Positions 41,037 to 45,333 of a stretch of DNA of 64,000 nucleotides are shown piece by piece (positions within the stretch are counted from its first letter, which is position 1; each line of letters begins with the position of its first letter). The DNA is taken from assembly GCF_022701295.1 (NCBI RefSeq), contig NZ_CP033204.1:2852001-2916000 (forward strand), read 5' to 3'. Source of the DNA: Sphingopyxis sp. YF1. GTDB taxonomy: Bacteria; Pseudomonadota; Alphaproteobacteria; Sphingomonadales; Sphingomonadaceae. The translations under genes were made by a program, and so were the position numbers. A model generated the notes under the pieces. That model saw only the letters and a program-made list of their open reading frames with translations. It ran no database searches and had not been told where the DNA came from.

Positions 41037-41099
41037 ATGGGTTGGTTCTGGAGATGGATGGGCGGCGGCGGCACCGGTAGCGGTGGCGGTCAGGCCTGA
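41037..41099 (+). CDS. Small ORF encoding a 20-residue Trp/Gly-rich peptide
   Basis: AAGGAGA, six bases, then ATG: one of the best ribosome sites in the window. The peptide has an aromatic N-terminus (MGWFWRWM) and a Gly-rich tail with one Ser, Thr and Gln (GGGGTGSGGGQA). An intrinsic terminator begins 20 bp after the stop, and an AT-rich dyad lies ~65 bp upstream, so promoter, ribosome site, ORF and terminator form a complete ~200-bp unit. The transcript might instead be a regulatory RNA. The peptide could bind membranes through its Trp cluster; function unknown. Confidence 0.55.
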   Translation: MGWFWRWMGGGGTGSGGGQA

Positions 41100-41149: not shown

Positions 41150-41426
41150 CGTTGGGGCATGGTAAACATCGGAGATTTTCGTCGACAAGACGACGGTCTC
41201 GTTCCTCGTGGCGGGCCCGATTCCGGTTGCGACGCTCGTCATTGGCCCCTCGCCTATCGATTTATGTCACGACACGACAACGGCATCGGCGAAGCGCGGT
41301 TCGCAAGCATTCTCCGCCCCCGCGAAGGACGCGGGGCACCTGTCAGCACCGCCAAGCCGGAGGTGGAGCGGAAGGGTTTCTAGTTCAGAGCGGCGCCGAC
41401 GCCACCCCGACCCGCTGTCGTCCGCA

Positions 41427-42383
41427 TCAGGAGCGGGGGAGTTGCCCATTGCCCGGCAACCCGGGGAGGATCGGAGACGGCTGTTGCAACAGCTTGCTTC
41501 CGTGGCAGTTTTTGTACTGCTTGCCGTCTCCGCACGGGCACGGCGCGTTGCGGTGGACCTTGGGCACCGCCATGGGAGCCGGCTCGTCGCTAACGTCCTC
41601 AACCGTGAAGTCGGTCATGGCGATCCCGCCGCCGCCGGGATGGATGGACACCATGGAAGGCATGCGCACACTGAACTGGTTGACCATGGTCGAACCGCCG
41701 CCTTCGATCGGGCGCACGGGATCGGAATACAACAGGATAGAATCGAGTTGCTTGCCCACGGTGCCCGCACTTTTCGGATCGTCCGCCACCTTGCGCACCA
41801 TCCCTTCCAGCATGGCACGCATCCCGGCTGCGGGCATGCCGGCCTTCAGCCCCTTCCGAATCCGGTGCTCGAACCGGACAGCGGCAGGTCCGCCGCTCCC
41901 CATGACGCCAACCCACGTCCAATCATCGGGCGCATTGTCGGCGACGCCTGAATAGCGTGTGCCAAAGGGCCCGTGGGGGTCGTCCAAGTTGGAAATTTCC
42001 GCCGCCAACCCTTTGGGCGGATCGATCGAAATATTATAACCGATAATCGATATGATCAGCGCTTTTCGGTCGGGCGCCAATATCTTAATGGGTATTGTCG
42101 TCGTGAAAAGCTTGGTGAGTTCGGTCGCCAAGCCATCGAGCATCTGGACCGGATCCGTATTTTCCTTTGCCAAATTGATGAGCGTGGTCATCAACCATGT
42201 TTTCGTCGCGTGAGAGCCGATCGTCGCAAGACCGGCAAAGGCAACGGAAAAGCGGAAGTTCGAAAAAACGAGCGAGAAACATTTCTCATGCTCGTCATCC
42301 ACGACGAGGCCATCGGCCGTCAGGCGACGATCGGTAACTTGCACGACGAAATCTTTGTTCATGGCGGCGAGGATCAGGGTCAC
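41427..42383 (-). CDS. Proteasome-like Ntn hydrolase with C-terminal SEC-C zinc motif
   Basis: 318 residues. From the GTG start (GGAG nine bases upstream) the second residue is Thr. Numbering it Thr1 as in HslV, the protein has Asp17 in VQVTDRRLT, Thr21, and Lys33 in DDEHEKCF, followed by SVAFAGLATIGSHAT, which aligns with HslV's AGFAGGTADAFT. This is the exact Thr1/Asp17/Lys33 spacing of HslV and proteasome beta subunits. Residues 279-295 (NAPCPCGDGKQYKNCHG) are a SEC-C zinc finger as in SecA. No ATPase gene is adjacent. Alternative starts further upstream would bury the Thr. Nucleophile role inferred. Confidence 0.65.
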   Translation of the reverse strand: MTLILAAMNKDFVVQVTDRRLTADGLVVDDEHEKCFSLVFSNFRFSVAFAGLATIGSHATKTWLMTTLINLAKENTDPVQMLDGLATELTKLFTTTIPIKILAPDRKALIISIIGYNISIDPPKGLAAEISNLDDPHGPFGTRYSGVADNAPDDWTWVGVMGSGGPAAVRFEHRIRKGLKAGMPAAGMRAMLEGMVRKVADDPKSAGTVGKQLDSILLYSDPVRPIEGGGSTMVNQFSVRMPSMVSIHPGGGGIAMTDFTVEDVSDEPAPMAVPKVHRNAPCPCGDGKQYKNCHGSKLLQQPSPILPGLPGNGQLPRS

Positions 42384-42485
42384 ACGGACTACTCCGATGA
42401 TTTGGTCACCGACATGACACGGCGGAGCCCTCCGCGCCATCGCTCCCTGTCCGACGGCAGCCGGCGCTCGCTCGCGCAGCCCAAG

Positions 42486-42510
42486 AAAAAGGGAGCGGTC
42501 GCCCGCTCCC
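42486..42510 (-). terminator. Intrinsic terminator of the blaI-M56 operon
   Basis: Reading the minus strand: GGGAGCGG, loop GCGA, CCGCTCCC, then TTTTTC. It lies ~65 bp after the M56 stop. Confidence 0.8.
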
Positions 42511-42573
42511 TTTCCCCGCCCCTGCCGCATGCGCCCACCGGGGAGAAGGCGCGCGCGGCATGATCGAAACCCG

Positions 42574-44295
42574 TCAGTCGTGCTTCTGCTCGAGCTCGGC
42601 GATCGCCCGGTCGAGGTCGGCGGCGACCTTCGCGCGCATCGCGTCGGACATCTGCCGCCCCGCCTGCGCTTCGGAAAACTGCGCCCGCGCCTTCTTCAGC
42701 GCCGACAGCTGCGCCGTACGGTCGCCCGGCGCGCCGCAGCGGATCATCATCACGCGGCTGTGCCTGGCGCCATCCTTGTCGTCGCGATCGACCAGCGGCA
42801 CCGGCACCGCCCCCTTGCCGCAATGCGCGACGCTAAGCGCCTTGCCGTCGCCCGGCGACCAGCTCATGGGCGGGATCGGGGGCATCGGGGGGATGGGCGC
42901 CAGAGCGGTGCGAAAGCTTTCCTTGCGCTTCGCCTCGAGCTTGTCGGCAATCGCTTCGGCCTGGGCGCCGGCGATGCCCTGTTCCTTCAACGTCGCAAGG
43001 ATGTCGTCGCGCGACAGGCTGCCCGGCATGCGGAATTCGAACCGCTTCGCCCCGGCCTCCCCCGGCGCAACCATCGTGACATGCGCCGGCGTCTCGCCGT
43101 CGCGCTCGCGGATCATGATGCTCCGCACTTCACGGCGCTTGCCATGCCTGGCGGCGTCGGTGCCCGCGCCGTCGTCGTTCGAGGTAAAGATCATCACGCC
43201 ATGGCCATCGCCGATCGCGTCGGGCGCGGCGGGGGCTTCGGGCGGCGGCGGTGCGTCGGGCGCGGCCGGGGGAGCGGGCGGTGCCGGCGGCGGCGGCGGT
43301 GCGGGCAGGTCGCTGTCCTGCACGCTCGCGCTCGCGATCCCGGCGGGCACCAGCGTCGCGGTCGTCGCGAGCACCGCAAGCGCCGTGCCGCCGACGAGCA
43401 GCCGGCCGACCAGCCCGCGCTCCTTCGAAATATCCTGCTGCATCAGCATCGTCAGTCTCTCCTGCAGATTGTCGTGGACCGCCATCGGCGCCGCGAGCGA
43501 CAGCCGCGATCCGACCGCCGCCTTCGCGATCGCGGTGGCGTAGCGCGCGGTGCGCACATCGCGCGGCGCGACGTCGCTCATCGTCAGCACGCGCGCATCG
43601 CACGCCGCCTCCTGGTCGAAACGGAAGGCGCGGATGGCGCGCCAGGCGAAGGGGTTGAACCATTGCACCGCGAGCAGAAGCAGCGCCGCGCTGTTCGCCC
43701 ACAAGTCGCCGTGGCGGTGATGCGCCAGCTCGTGGTCGATCGCCAGCGCGCGCTCCTCGGCGACATAGCGCGCAAAGAAATCGCGCGGCACCGCGACATA
43801 GCGATGCCACAGGCCAAAGGCGACCGGGCCGTCGACCGCCTCGCTCATCACCAGCCGGATCGTGCCGATCGGTTCGAGCGCGACCGCGCCCGTCAGCACC
43901 GCCCGCCGGAAACGCTGGTGCGACAGCGTCGCCGTCGCGATCACCGCGACCAGCCCCGCCGCCCACAGCGCGAACAGCCACGGCAGCAGGTCGGCGAACG
44001 ACCAGAGCGGCGCCGCCTGCGAAACCGGCAGCGCGGGGGTGCCGGTGCCCGCCGCCCCGGCCATGTCGACCAGCACGATATCGGCCACCGGCGCCGCGGC
44101 CTGAGGGGCAACGGGCTCGGCAAAGGGCAGCGGCGGCAGCACCAGCCGCAACGCGGGCACCGCCCACAGCGCATAGGTCAGCCGCGGTCCGAAATGGCGC
44201 GCAAAGGGCTTGCGGATCAGCAGGACCGCGAGGACGAGCAGCGCGGTGGTGACGAGCGTGTCGGCCCACGCCTGAAAGAGCATCGCGGCGCTCAT
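42574..44295 (-). CDS. M56-family (BlaR1/MecR1-like) membrane metallopeptidase
   Basis: 573 residues. Four membrane helices in the N-terminal ~350 residues frame a cytoplasmic zinc protease domain with HELAHHRHGD (H188, E189, H192) and a downstream FRFDQEAACDARVL that supplies the third ligand. The C-terminal part after the last helix is periplasmic, opening with a Pro/Ala-rich stretch (~APPPPPAPPAPPAAPD), and lacks a penicillin-binding domain, unlike BlaR1. Stimulus sensing by this tail would trigger cleavage of the BlaI-like repressor. The ATG overlaps the blaI stop by 4 bp. Confidence 0.85.
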   Translation of the reverse strand: MSAAMLFQAWADTLVTTALLVLAVLLIRKPFARHFGPRLTYALWAVPALRLVLPPLPFAEPVAPQAAAPVADIVLVDMAGAAGTGTPALPVSQAAPLWSFADLLPWLFALWAAGLVAVIATATLSHQRFRRAVLTGAVALEPIGTIRLVMSEAVDGPVAFGLWHRYVAVPRDFFARYVAEERALAIDHELAHHRHGDLWANSAALLLLAVQWFNPFAWRAIRAFRFDQEAACDARVLTMSDVAPRDVRTARYATAIAKAAVGSRLSLAAPMAVHDNLQERLTMLMQQDISKERGLVGRLLVGGTALAVLATTATLVPAGIASASVQDSDLPAPPPPPAPPAPPAAPDAPPPPEAPAAPDAIGDGHGVMIFTSNDDGAGTDAARHGKRREVRSIMIRERDGETPAHVTMVAPGEAGAKRFEFRMPGSLSRDDILATLKEQGIAGAQAEAIADKLEAKRKESFRTALAPIPPMPPIPPMSWSPGDGKALSVAHCGKGAVPVPLVDRDDKDGARHSRVMMIRCGAPGDRTAQLSALKKARAQFSEAQAGRQMSDAMRAKVAADLDRAIAELEQKHD

Positions 44296-44660
44296 GACTT
44301 GAGCTTCCGGAGCAGCGCCTCGATCTCGGCGATGTCGCTGTCGGTCAGCGCCTCGCGTTCGGCGAGGTGCGCGATCATCGGGCTCACCCGGCCGCCGAAC
44401 AGCCGGTCGACGAAGCGCTGCGATTCCTCGCCGACCGCCTCGGCGCGTTCGACCGCGGGACGGTACAGGTAGCGCCGCCCTTCGGCCTCGGCGGCGACCG
44501 CGCCCTTCTGGACGAGGCGCGCGAGCAGGGTCTTGACCGTGGCGAGCGTCCAGCCGTTCGCGGTGCCGACGCTTTCCGCAAGCTCGGCCGCGGTCTGCGG
44601 GGATTCGTCCCACAGCGCGGTCAGGACCTGCATCTCGGATTCGCTTGCGCGTTCAGCCAT
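44292..44660 (-). CDS. BlaI/MecI/CopY-family transcriptional repressor
   Basis: 122 residues. The winged helix SESEMQVLTALWDESPQTAAELAESVGTANGWTLATVKTLLARLVQKGAVAAEAEGRRYLYRPAV is typical of BlaI, with a C-terminal dimerisation helix. It represses its own operon until cleaved by the co-encoded M56 protease. GGGAGGGG lies upstream of the ATG. The target signal is unknown: there is no beta-lactamase gene nearby. Confidence 0.85.
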   Translation of the reverse strand: MAERASESEMQVLTALWDESPQTAAELAESVGTANGWTLATVKTLLARLVQKGAVAAEAEGRRYLYRPAVERAEAVGEESQRFVDRLFGGRVSPMIAHLAEREALTDSDIAEIEALLRKLKS

Positions 44661-44695
44661 GACGGAACCCCTCCCTCGGCTTGTGTCTGCAATAC

Positions 44696-44711
44696 GACTA
44701 CAGATGTAGTC
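44696..44711. promoter_or_regulatory. BlaI-type operator
   Basis: Perfect palindrome GACTACA-GA-TGTAGTC containing the TACA/TGTA core of Bla/Mec operators, 36 bp upstream of the blaI-like start codon. Strong candidate for autorepression. Confidence 0.75.
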
Positions 44712-44902
44712 AATAGACTGAACGCTTGCTGAACGGAACGAAAGGAGGAGGAGCGGCGGGGCGATGCTTCGGCCCCCCGCCCGCACCCCGCCCGCACCAG
44801 GCCGACGGCACGGGCGGGCCCTGTCGGGATTTTTGACACCCGCGCGGCGCGGTAAGGAATCGCTAACCAGCCGAGGCCGCACAAAAGCACGGCGGCCCGA
44901 AT

Positions 44903-44919
44903 CTGGCACGCGCCTTGTA
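44903..44919 (+). promoter_or_regulatory. Sigma-54-like -24/-12 element
   Basis: CTGGCACG-CGCC-TTGTA matches the consensus TTGGCACG-N4-TTGCW except for C/T at the first base and T for C in the -12 GC. Spacing is exact. Transcription would start near 44931, just before two tandem hairpins. No sigma-54 activator gene is in view. Confidence 0.35.
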
Positions 44920-44943
44920 TGATCATCGATGTTCCCGAGTGTT

Positions 44944-44992
44944 CCGCTCACTGGAGCGGCAGGAGGCATCGGTCTGGTCCCCGATGCCTCCT
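44944..44992 (+). other. Two tandem perfect hairpins, possible small RNA
   Basis: CCGCTC-ACTG-GAGCGG (44944-44959) is followed directly by AGGAGGCATCGG-N8-CCGATGCCTCCT (44961-44992). The AGGAGG lies in the 5' arm of the second stem, so a ribosome-binding-like sequence is sequestered. No U-tract follows. It could be a small RNA or a leader structure. Confidence 0.35.
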
Positions 44993-45333
44993 GTCCCCAC
45001 CCGGGAAATCCCCACTTGCCCCCGAAGCAGACGGGGGGCGGAGCGGCCGCAAGGCCCCGCCCCCCGGACGCCTCCTCCCTCCCCTCGATGGCGGCCGCAC
45101 CGGCGCCGCGATGCCCGGCCGCCCGATGCGCCCCCGCACCCCCGTTTCCGCATCGGGTGGCAAGCGATTTATTTTGCTTCGCGCCGTTCGGCGCCGACCG
45201 TATCGGCGAAGCCCGCGGAAAGCCGTCGATCGGGTCCGCGAAGCGTGCCTCGCGAACGACGAAACGAATCGGAAGAGCGACGAGTCGAGTCCTCAATCTG
45301 TCATTTACTCTCTTGCATCGCCGCGCCGACGTG
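44993..45333. other. Intergenic, no gene supported
   Basis: Several open frames cross this GC-rich stretch on both strands, but none has a ribosome site, sensible composition or recognisable motif. No terminator or repeat of the window's families is visible. It forms part of the ~850-bp gap between blaI and nrdA. Confidence 0.5.

Follow-up and report, generated by a model that had tools for sequence, protein, structure and literature searches.

The stretch of DNA analysed here, 64,000 nucleotides from Sphingopyxis sp. YF1 (contig NZ_CP033204.1, positions 2,852,001 to 2,916,000; the window), carries on its reverse strand, at 41427..42383, a gene for a 318-residue protein that is very probably a stand-alone member of the proteasome-like N-terminal nucleophile (Ntn) superfamily, fused once, as far as the sample goes, to a SecA-type SEC-C metal module. 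The gene starts with a GTG at 42383, and a GGAG ribosome site (42392..42395) lies 8 bases upstream of it. The product begins Met-Thr, and numbering from the threonine gives Thr1 (codon at 42378..42380), the predicted catalytic N-terminal nucleophile once the methionine is removed, followed by Asp17 (42330..42332), Arg19, Thr21 and Lys33 (42282..42284). Gly50 (42231..42233), which we take to be the equivalent of the oxyanion Gly47, lies within VAFAGLA, where HslV rows read VIAGFAGAT, and the oxyanion-type glycine is thus at 50 and not at 47. The proteasome-like Ntn domain covers approximately residues 1-262 counted from Thr1 (41595..42380), as judged from an AlphaFold2 model, VIA-align and Foldseek, and the C-terminus holds the SEC-C metal-binding motif CPCGDGKQYKNCH (41502..41540), that is C281-P-C283-x8-C292-H293 or CxCx8CH; all of these features are on the reverse strand. 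An in-frame ATG at 42530 opens a longer open reading frame (ORF), and some homologue rows carry annotated longer starts. This ATG is unlikely to be the start, because all 56 rows extending that far have Met or Val directly before the Thr or Ser. An earlier note on this DNA had proposed the GTG start with its ribosome site, a threonine after the initiator with Asp17, Thr21 and Lys33 at exactly the HslV and proteasome numbering, an AFAG segment where HslV has GFAG, and a SecA-type SEC-C C-terminus, and each of these points was borne out.

The predicted structure (AlphaFold2 model ma5f1f971c448; predicted local distance difference test 90.3, predicted template modelling score 0.86) has the beta-sheet core of an Ntn fold, flanked by the helix pairs H1-H4, including helices at 60-74 and 78-95, and extra C-terminal strands, and no helix of five or more residues lies beyond residue 200. 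When it was compared with the PDB by Foldseek and by VIA-align, all 50 matches listed by each were proteasome or Anbu chains. No HslV, BPH or connectase chain was among the 50 VIA-align matches listed, which excludes nothing. A chance fold or a different fold was rejected on the confident model together with these matches, and the check by structure prediction that the earlier note suggested gave a proteasome-type Ntn fold, with 20S and Anbu chains as the matches listed. We are highly confident of the Thr-nucleophile proteasome-like fold together with its nucleophile.

Conservation within the family points the same way. Searching 5.8 billion proteins turned up 62 relatives, a profile search gave 109 matches (P0086-P0125 among them look tail-only, for example SecA), and a final protein search with alignment A3 gave at least 13. 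In the 59-row alignment A1, position 1 is Thr in 55 rows, Ser in one and a gap in three, and the preceding residue is Met in 54, Val in two and a gap in three, as a start codon would give. Asp17 and Lys33 are found in 58 of 58 rows (one gap each), and Gly50 and the Cys, Cys, Cys and His of the SEC-C motif each in 59 of 59. Because both the catalytic and the SEC-C residues are conserved in A1, a chance match can be excluded. After sisters that have no SEC-C were added, the alignment held 101 rows, 76 of which carry SEC-C by motif, and Thr1 was present in 96 of 97 (one Ser, four gaps), Asp17 and Lys33 in 98 of 98 (three gaps each), the oxyanion Gly50 in 99 of 99 (two gaps) and Arg19 in 95 of 98. 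Left out of this set were the fragments P0060-P0063 and P0080, P0086-P0125 (tail-only by our reading), L018, L085 and L086 (frames not recovered by the motif pattern), and L070, which is the same gene as L084. The protein thus has the Thr1 or Ser1, Asp17, Lys33 and oxyanion glycine that mark a proteasome-like family as PMC8665760 uses the term. Fold and active site are well supported, the predicted active site being established by conservation and the modelled fold. A different fold, a poorly conserved Thr, Asp17 or Lys33, and a true start further upstream, which the earlier note had named as grounds for abandoning its proposal, did not turn up.

SEC-C (PF02810) is the sole Pfam domain over its cut-off in the protein, with 24.3 bits against 20.4, which places the tail in that family, and the tail is matched by the SecA zinc-finger chains 1ozb (E 3.4e-7), 1sx0 and 1tm6. 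In an 88-row tree of the Ntn domain, 71 SEC-C rows and two rows with decayed tails fall on one side of a branch with a support of 98 in the Shimodaira-Hasegawa-like approximate likelihood ratio test, and the remaining 15 rows, which have no motif, fall outside it. The two decayed tails have lost the first SEC-C cysteine (P0075) and the end of the motif (P0078). On the tree of the 101 rows, of which 76 have the motif and 25 lack it, the label requires three changes, compared with about 22.5 in shuffles; the 25 include P0075 and P0078 as well as P0084 (194 residues) and L022, which are short or cut and uninformative on the tail. The SEC-C side includes records titled Hydrogenophaga, Gammaproteobacteria, Chlorobiaceae and Flavobacteriaceae, and the motif of the last reads LCWCPSGKKYKYCH, with the ligands kept. 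Because the SEC-C rows group on one side of the Ntn-domain tree, these sequences fit a single fusion as far as the sample goes, with SEC-C then retained over deep divergence and decaying twice, and the pairing of the two domains looks old and conserved. SEC-C-less members of the clade may be under-sampled, because SEC-C proteins served as the seeds of the two larger protein searches. A scan of genomes with a tail-free profile, which is the fairer sample, gave 11 loci, four with SEC-C (L012-L015), six without (one of them, L018, with a broken frame) and L022, which is cut by a contig end, and the ten that entered the tree (all except L018) fall on the matching sides.

The SEC-C-less sisters, which are actinobacterial, proteobacterial and from phages, have the same Ntn domain (profile-profile E 2e-34) with the same Thr1, Asp17, Lys33 and Gly, whereas they differ in having no SEC-C and in sitting on other tree branches. 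They occur in Actinobacteria and in Gordonia phages, where nine records are near-identical. Gene 30 of Gordonia phage Eviarto (L087:6001-6870), annotated as hypothetical, is such a sister, with minor tail genes on one side of it and the excise/integrase region on the other. Another genome of the same genus (G039) encodes a sister that keeps Thr1, Asp17 and Lys33 (L046:6628-7539) and adjoins ORFs which we read as transposases, and P0126 and P0127 from Sphingobium sp. OAS761 are similar to it. Partial matches to the tail-free profile were also seen in two further genomes of the phylum (L085 in G751 and L086 in G589). From host range and phage occurrence alone, our guess is that the sisters may be the published DAH family (PMC8665760).

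The gene is rare and scattered. Among 80 genomes of the genus the whole protein was found only in the window's own (G000), and G039 matched over residues 1-126; 78 of the 80 gave some match, mostly through SecA tails. With the tail-free profile, and with no more than six candidates scored per genome, matches came from 2 genomes among 385 in the class and from 3 among 398 in the phylum, the window's own included. Four nearby genes were scanned and encode a CHASE2-EAL protein, an M56 (BlaR1-type) peptidase, a BlaI-type repressor and ribonucleotide reductase. The peptidase (42574..44295, reverse strand, with the Met at 44295 as the assumed start; the longer ORF matches PF05569 at E 2.2e-44) and the penicillinase repressor (44292..44660, reverse strand, with the Met at 44660 as the assumed start; the longer ORF matches PF03965 at E 2.5e-30) lie together with our gene in a strain-specific insert of about 4 kb with approximate limits 41150..45206. 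This insert is absent from four of five relatives (L044, L045, L047 and L048), in which the flanks are 134-452 bases apart, and the fifth, L043, which has the closest CHASE2-EAL protein (91%), matches up to 41146 and then differs. The gene has a G+C content of 59.4% compared with 68.1% for the window, and its G+C at third codon positions is 0.74, whereas the CHASE2-EAL gene and nrdA have 0.88. Among the repeats at the insert edges there were no clear mobile-element ends. The window protein had no match in 72,556 plasmid records, in which L012 as the query gave three weak matches, and in phages it matched one record through the tail only. As a separate observation, a 20-residue ORF, MGWFWRWMGGGGTGSGGGQA, lies at 41037-41099 on the forward strand, and after it come a G+C-rich hairpin and a run of T. 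All five of the relatives named above have a similar small ORF. It may encode a conserved microprotein, placed between the CHASE2-EAL gene and nrdA.

The reading we favour is an amidase or ligase with a Thr nucleophile and no propeptide, which a SecA-type tail would dock. Methionine aminopeptidase would remove the initiator Met and expose Thr1, with no propeptide or self-processing involved. Thr1, with Lys33, Asp17 and the oxyanion turn at Gly50, would then attack an amide or peptide bond to give an acyl-enzyme, and this would be released either by water, as in a protease or amidase, or by an amine, as in a ligase such as connectase. The SEC-C tail would dock the enzyme where its substrate arises, by analogy with SecA most plausibly at a ribosome, a nascent chain or a SecB-like chaperone, and the modelled helix pairs H1-H4 would allow, without showing, assembly into a ring or dimer. 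Catalytic activity is, we infer, probable. Docking to ribosomes or nascent chains by the tail is a tentative proposal that we hold for rather doubtful, and assembly, metal and partner are each deduced. A more specific version, to which we give a low probability, is a co-translational enzyme: the finger would park the propeptide-free Thr protease or ligase at ribosomes or nascent chains, and there the enzyme would cut or join a specific partner without any ATPase. As the gene travels on mobile DNA and phages carry sisters of it, this partner may be a protein of the phage or of the host that is produced in the course of an infection. To our knowledge, no proteasome relative works in this ATPase-free, ribosome-parked way.

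A number of observations weigh against this reading. The link to the proteasome is weak from sequence alone: PF00227 (Proteasome) aligns with residues 4-53 at 11.9 bits, below its cut-off of 22.4 (E 0.17), so that the protein falls outside this Pfam family as scored, and PF00227 matches 7 of the 59 members of the alignment up to E 1 (best 4.6e-4). The family profile meets proteasome chains among PDB sequences at E 0.44 or worse. Against seven HslV rows it gave a weak match in register from residue 2 (E 5.2e-5, probability 67), which became E 1.1e-4 and probability 56 with a single HslV row; the HslV pattern had caught seven rows in one comparison and one row of 20 loci in the repeat. Reversed-profile controls reached E 0.16-0.41 for the family and 0.0087 in one sister comparison. 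The profile comparison missed Anbu (E 0.089), and it also missed HslV-Anbu, a true pair (E 0.2), hence profiles this thin are blunt. Alignment column 162, which we take to be proteasome Ser129, is Ser in only 10 of the 76 SEC-C rows, and by the same kind of assumed mapping a conserved Asp for Asp166 was not seen in the alignment. No neighbour gene that would indicate a substrate is shared between the window and L012-L015 (nine neighbours Pfam-scanned). The docking role, moreover, is borrowed by analogy from SecA. SecB binding requires the SecA finger, which also co-sediments with ribosomes, and modifying its cysteines disrupts this (PMC6620043); the same paper reports that the finger alone binds ribosomes at relatively low affinity and that SecA without the finger binds them more tightly.

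Other explanations were weighed. Instead of a protease, the enzyme could be a specific ligase or transpeptidase of proteins, comparable to archaeal connectase, with SEC-C binding the partner that is to be joined or modified. It shares superfamily and catalytic residues with connectase, which sets the precedent (PMC8665760), and no ATPase partner was seen among the scanned neighbours. However, connectase lacks helices H1-H2 according to that paper, whereas the window model has both, which also led us to reject connectase as the family of the protein, and no conserved substrate gene adjoins the gene; we regard a connectase-like ligase as rather unlikely. A scaffold or other structural protein that has lost catalysis and keeps the proteasome fold, as proteasome alpha subunits do, would agree with the poor conservation of the putative Ser129 equivalent, but Thr1, Asp17, Lys33 and the oxyanion Gly rank with the best-conserved residues in the domain, SEC-C-less sisters included, and such a scaffold is very improbable.

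A phage-linked or anti-phage enzyme on mobile DNA, with SEC-C as its docking module and a protein of phage or host as its target in infection, is also improbable, at about the level of the connectase-like ligase. The rare, scattered distribution, the insert in which the gene sits here, the sister in Gordonia phages and its place near excise and integrase genes in the one phage record looked at all speak for it, as do a SEC-C member (L015) about 4 kb from a phage-type integrase gene and the best viral fold match, a Gordonia phage Nymphadora protein (E 1.1e-13). On the other hand, the seven PADLOC matches all lie in residues 256-300, that is, in the tail, and an assignment to a defence system on their basis was rejected. 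No defence gene was recognised beside the gene in the window, the neighbours of L012 and L014 look chromosomal, an ORF at L013 that we read as terminase-like has no Pfam match, and the window protein had no match in the plasmid records.

The preferred reading, a proteasome-like enzyme docked by its SEC-C tail, can be set against the relatives in the same genome and in the literature. PF00227 is over its cut-off in two other genes of the genome. One is HslV, over its NCBIfam cut-off, which adjoins hslU at contig positions 1675034-1676869, about 1.2 Mb from our gene; the other, not named by NCBIfam, is presumably Anbu, to judge from its MTYCVG start and SDTRTNAG motif. The gene described here would be the third proteasome relative of the genome. 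It has the Thr1/Asp17/Thr21/Lys33 spacing of HslV, and differs from it in greater length, extra C-terminal strands, the SEC-C tail and the want of an adjoining hslU; moreover, in the relatives L053, L057 and L058, HslV is extended at the N-terminus ahead of GTTI, whereas the window protein has no such extension. HslV was rejected as the family since hslU is not next door and stands beside the genome's HslV elsewhere. The label HslV-type in the earlier note therefore stands for the residue spacing, but not for membership, and the fold matches listed are 20S and Anbu chains. Its statement that the gene is not beside hslU, a proteasome ATPase or an Anbu cluster agrees with the neighbours that were scanned. 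Compared with the 20S beta subunit, the protein lacks a propeptide, and none of the scanned neighbours is an alpha or ATPase gene; 20S beta was rejected as the family for want of an alpha partner, the PF00227 genes of the genome being only HslV and the putative Anbu. Anbu was rejected likewise, as the model has no long C-terminal helix H5 and the putative Anbu gene lies elsewhere.

Most proteasome relatives outside the classic machines are without known substrates. A 2021 survey (PMC8665760) presents 22 new proteasome-like families without known function, functional lead or ATPase partner, and some of these, such as RPC and DAH, have unexplained C-terminal domains; the words 'SEC-C', 'SecA' and 'zinc' do not occur in its main text. 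We found no published description of a proteasome-like/SEC-C combination in a literature search that covered few subscription journals. Hence the new arrangement suggested in the earlier note holds for the SEC-C fusion, which is the novelty, but not for stand-alone homologues without an ATPase neighbour, which that survey had already published. The fusion gives the enzyme a built-in recruitment module whose behaviour has been studied, as the SecA finger binds SecB and ribosomes (PMC6620043), and the substrate and location of a stand-alone proteasome homologue become directly testable. It also offers a single-chain Thr1 enzyme without propeptide for expression and for probing with proteasome inhibitors. 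Compared with SecA itself, the tail has the same CxCx8CH and flanking residues, and here they are joined to a proteasome-like enzyme and not to a translocation ATPase.
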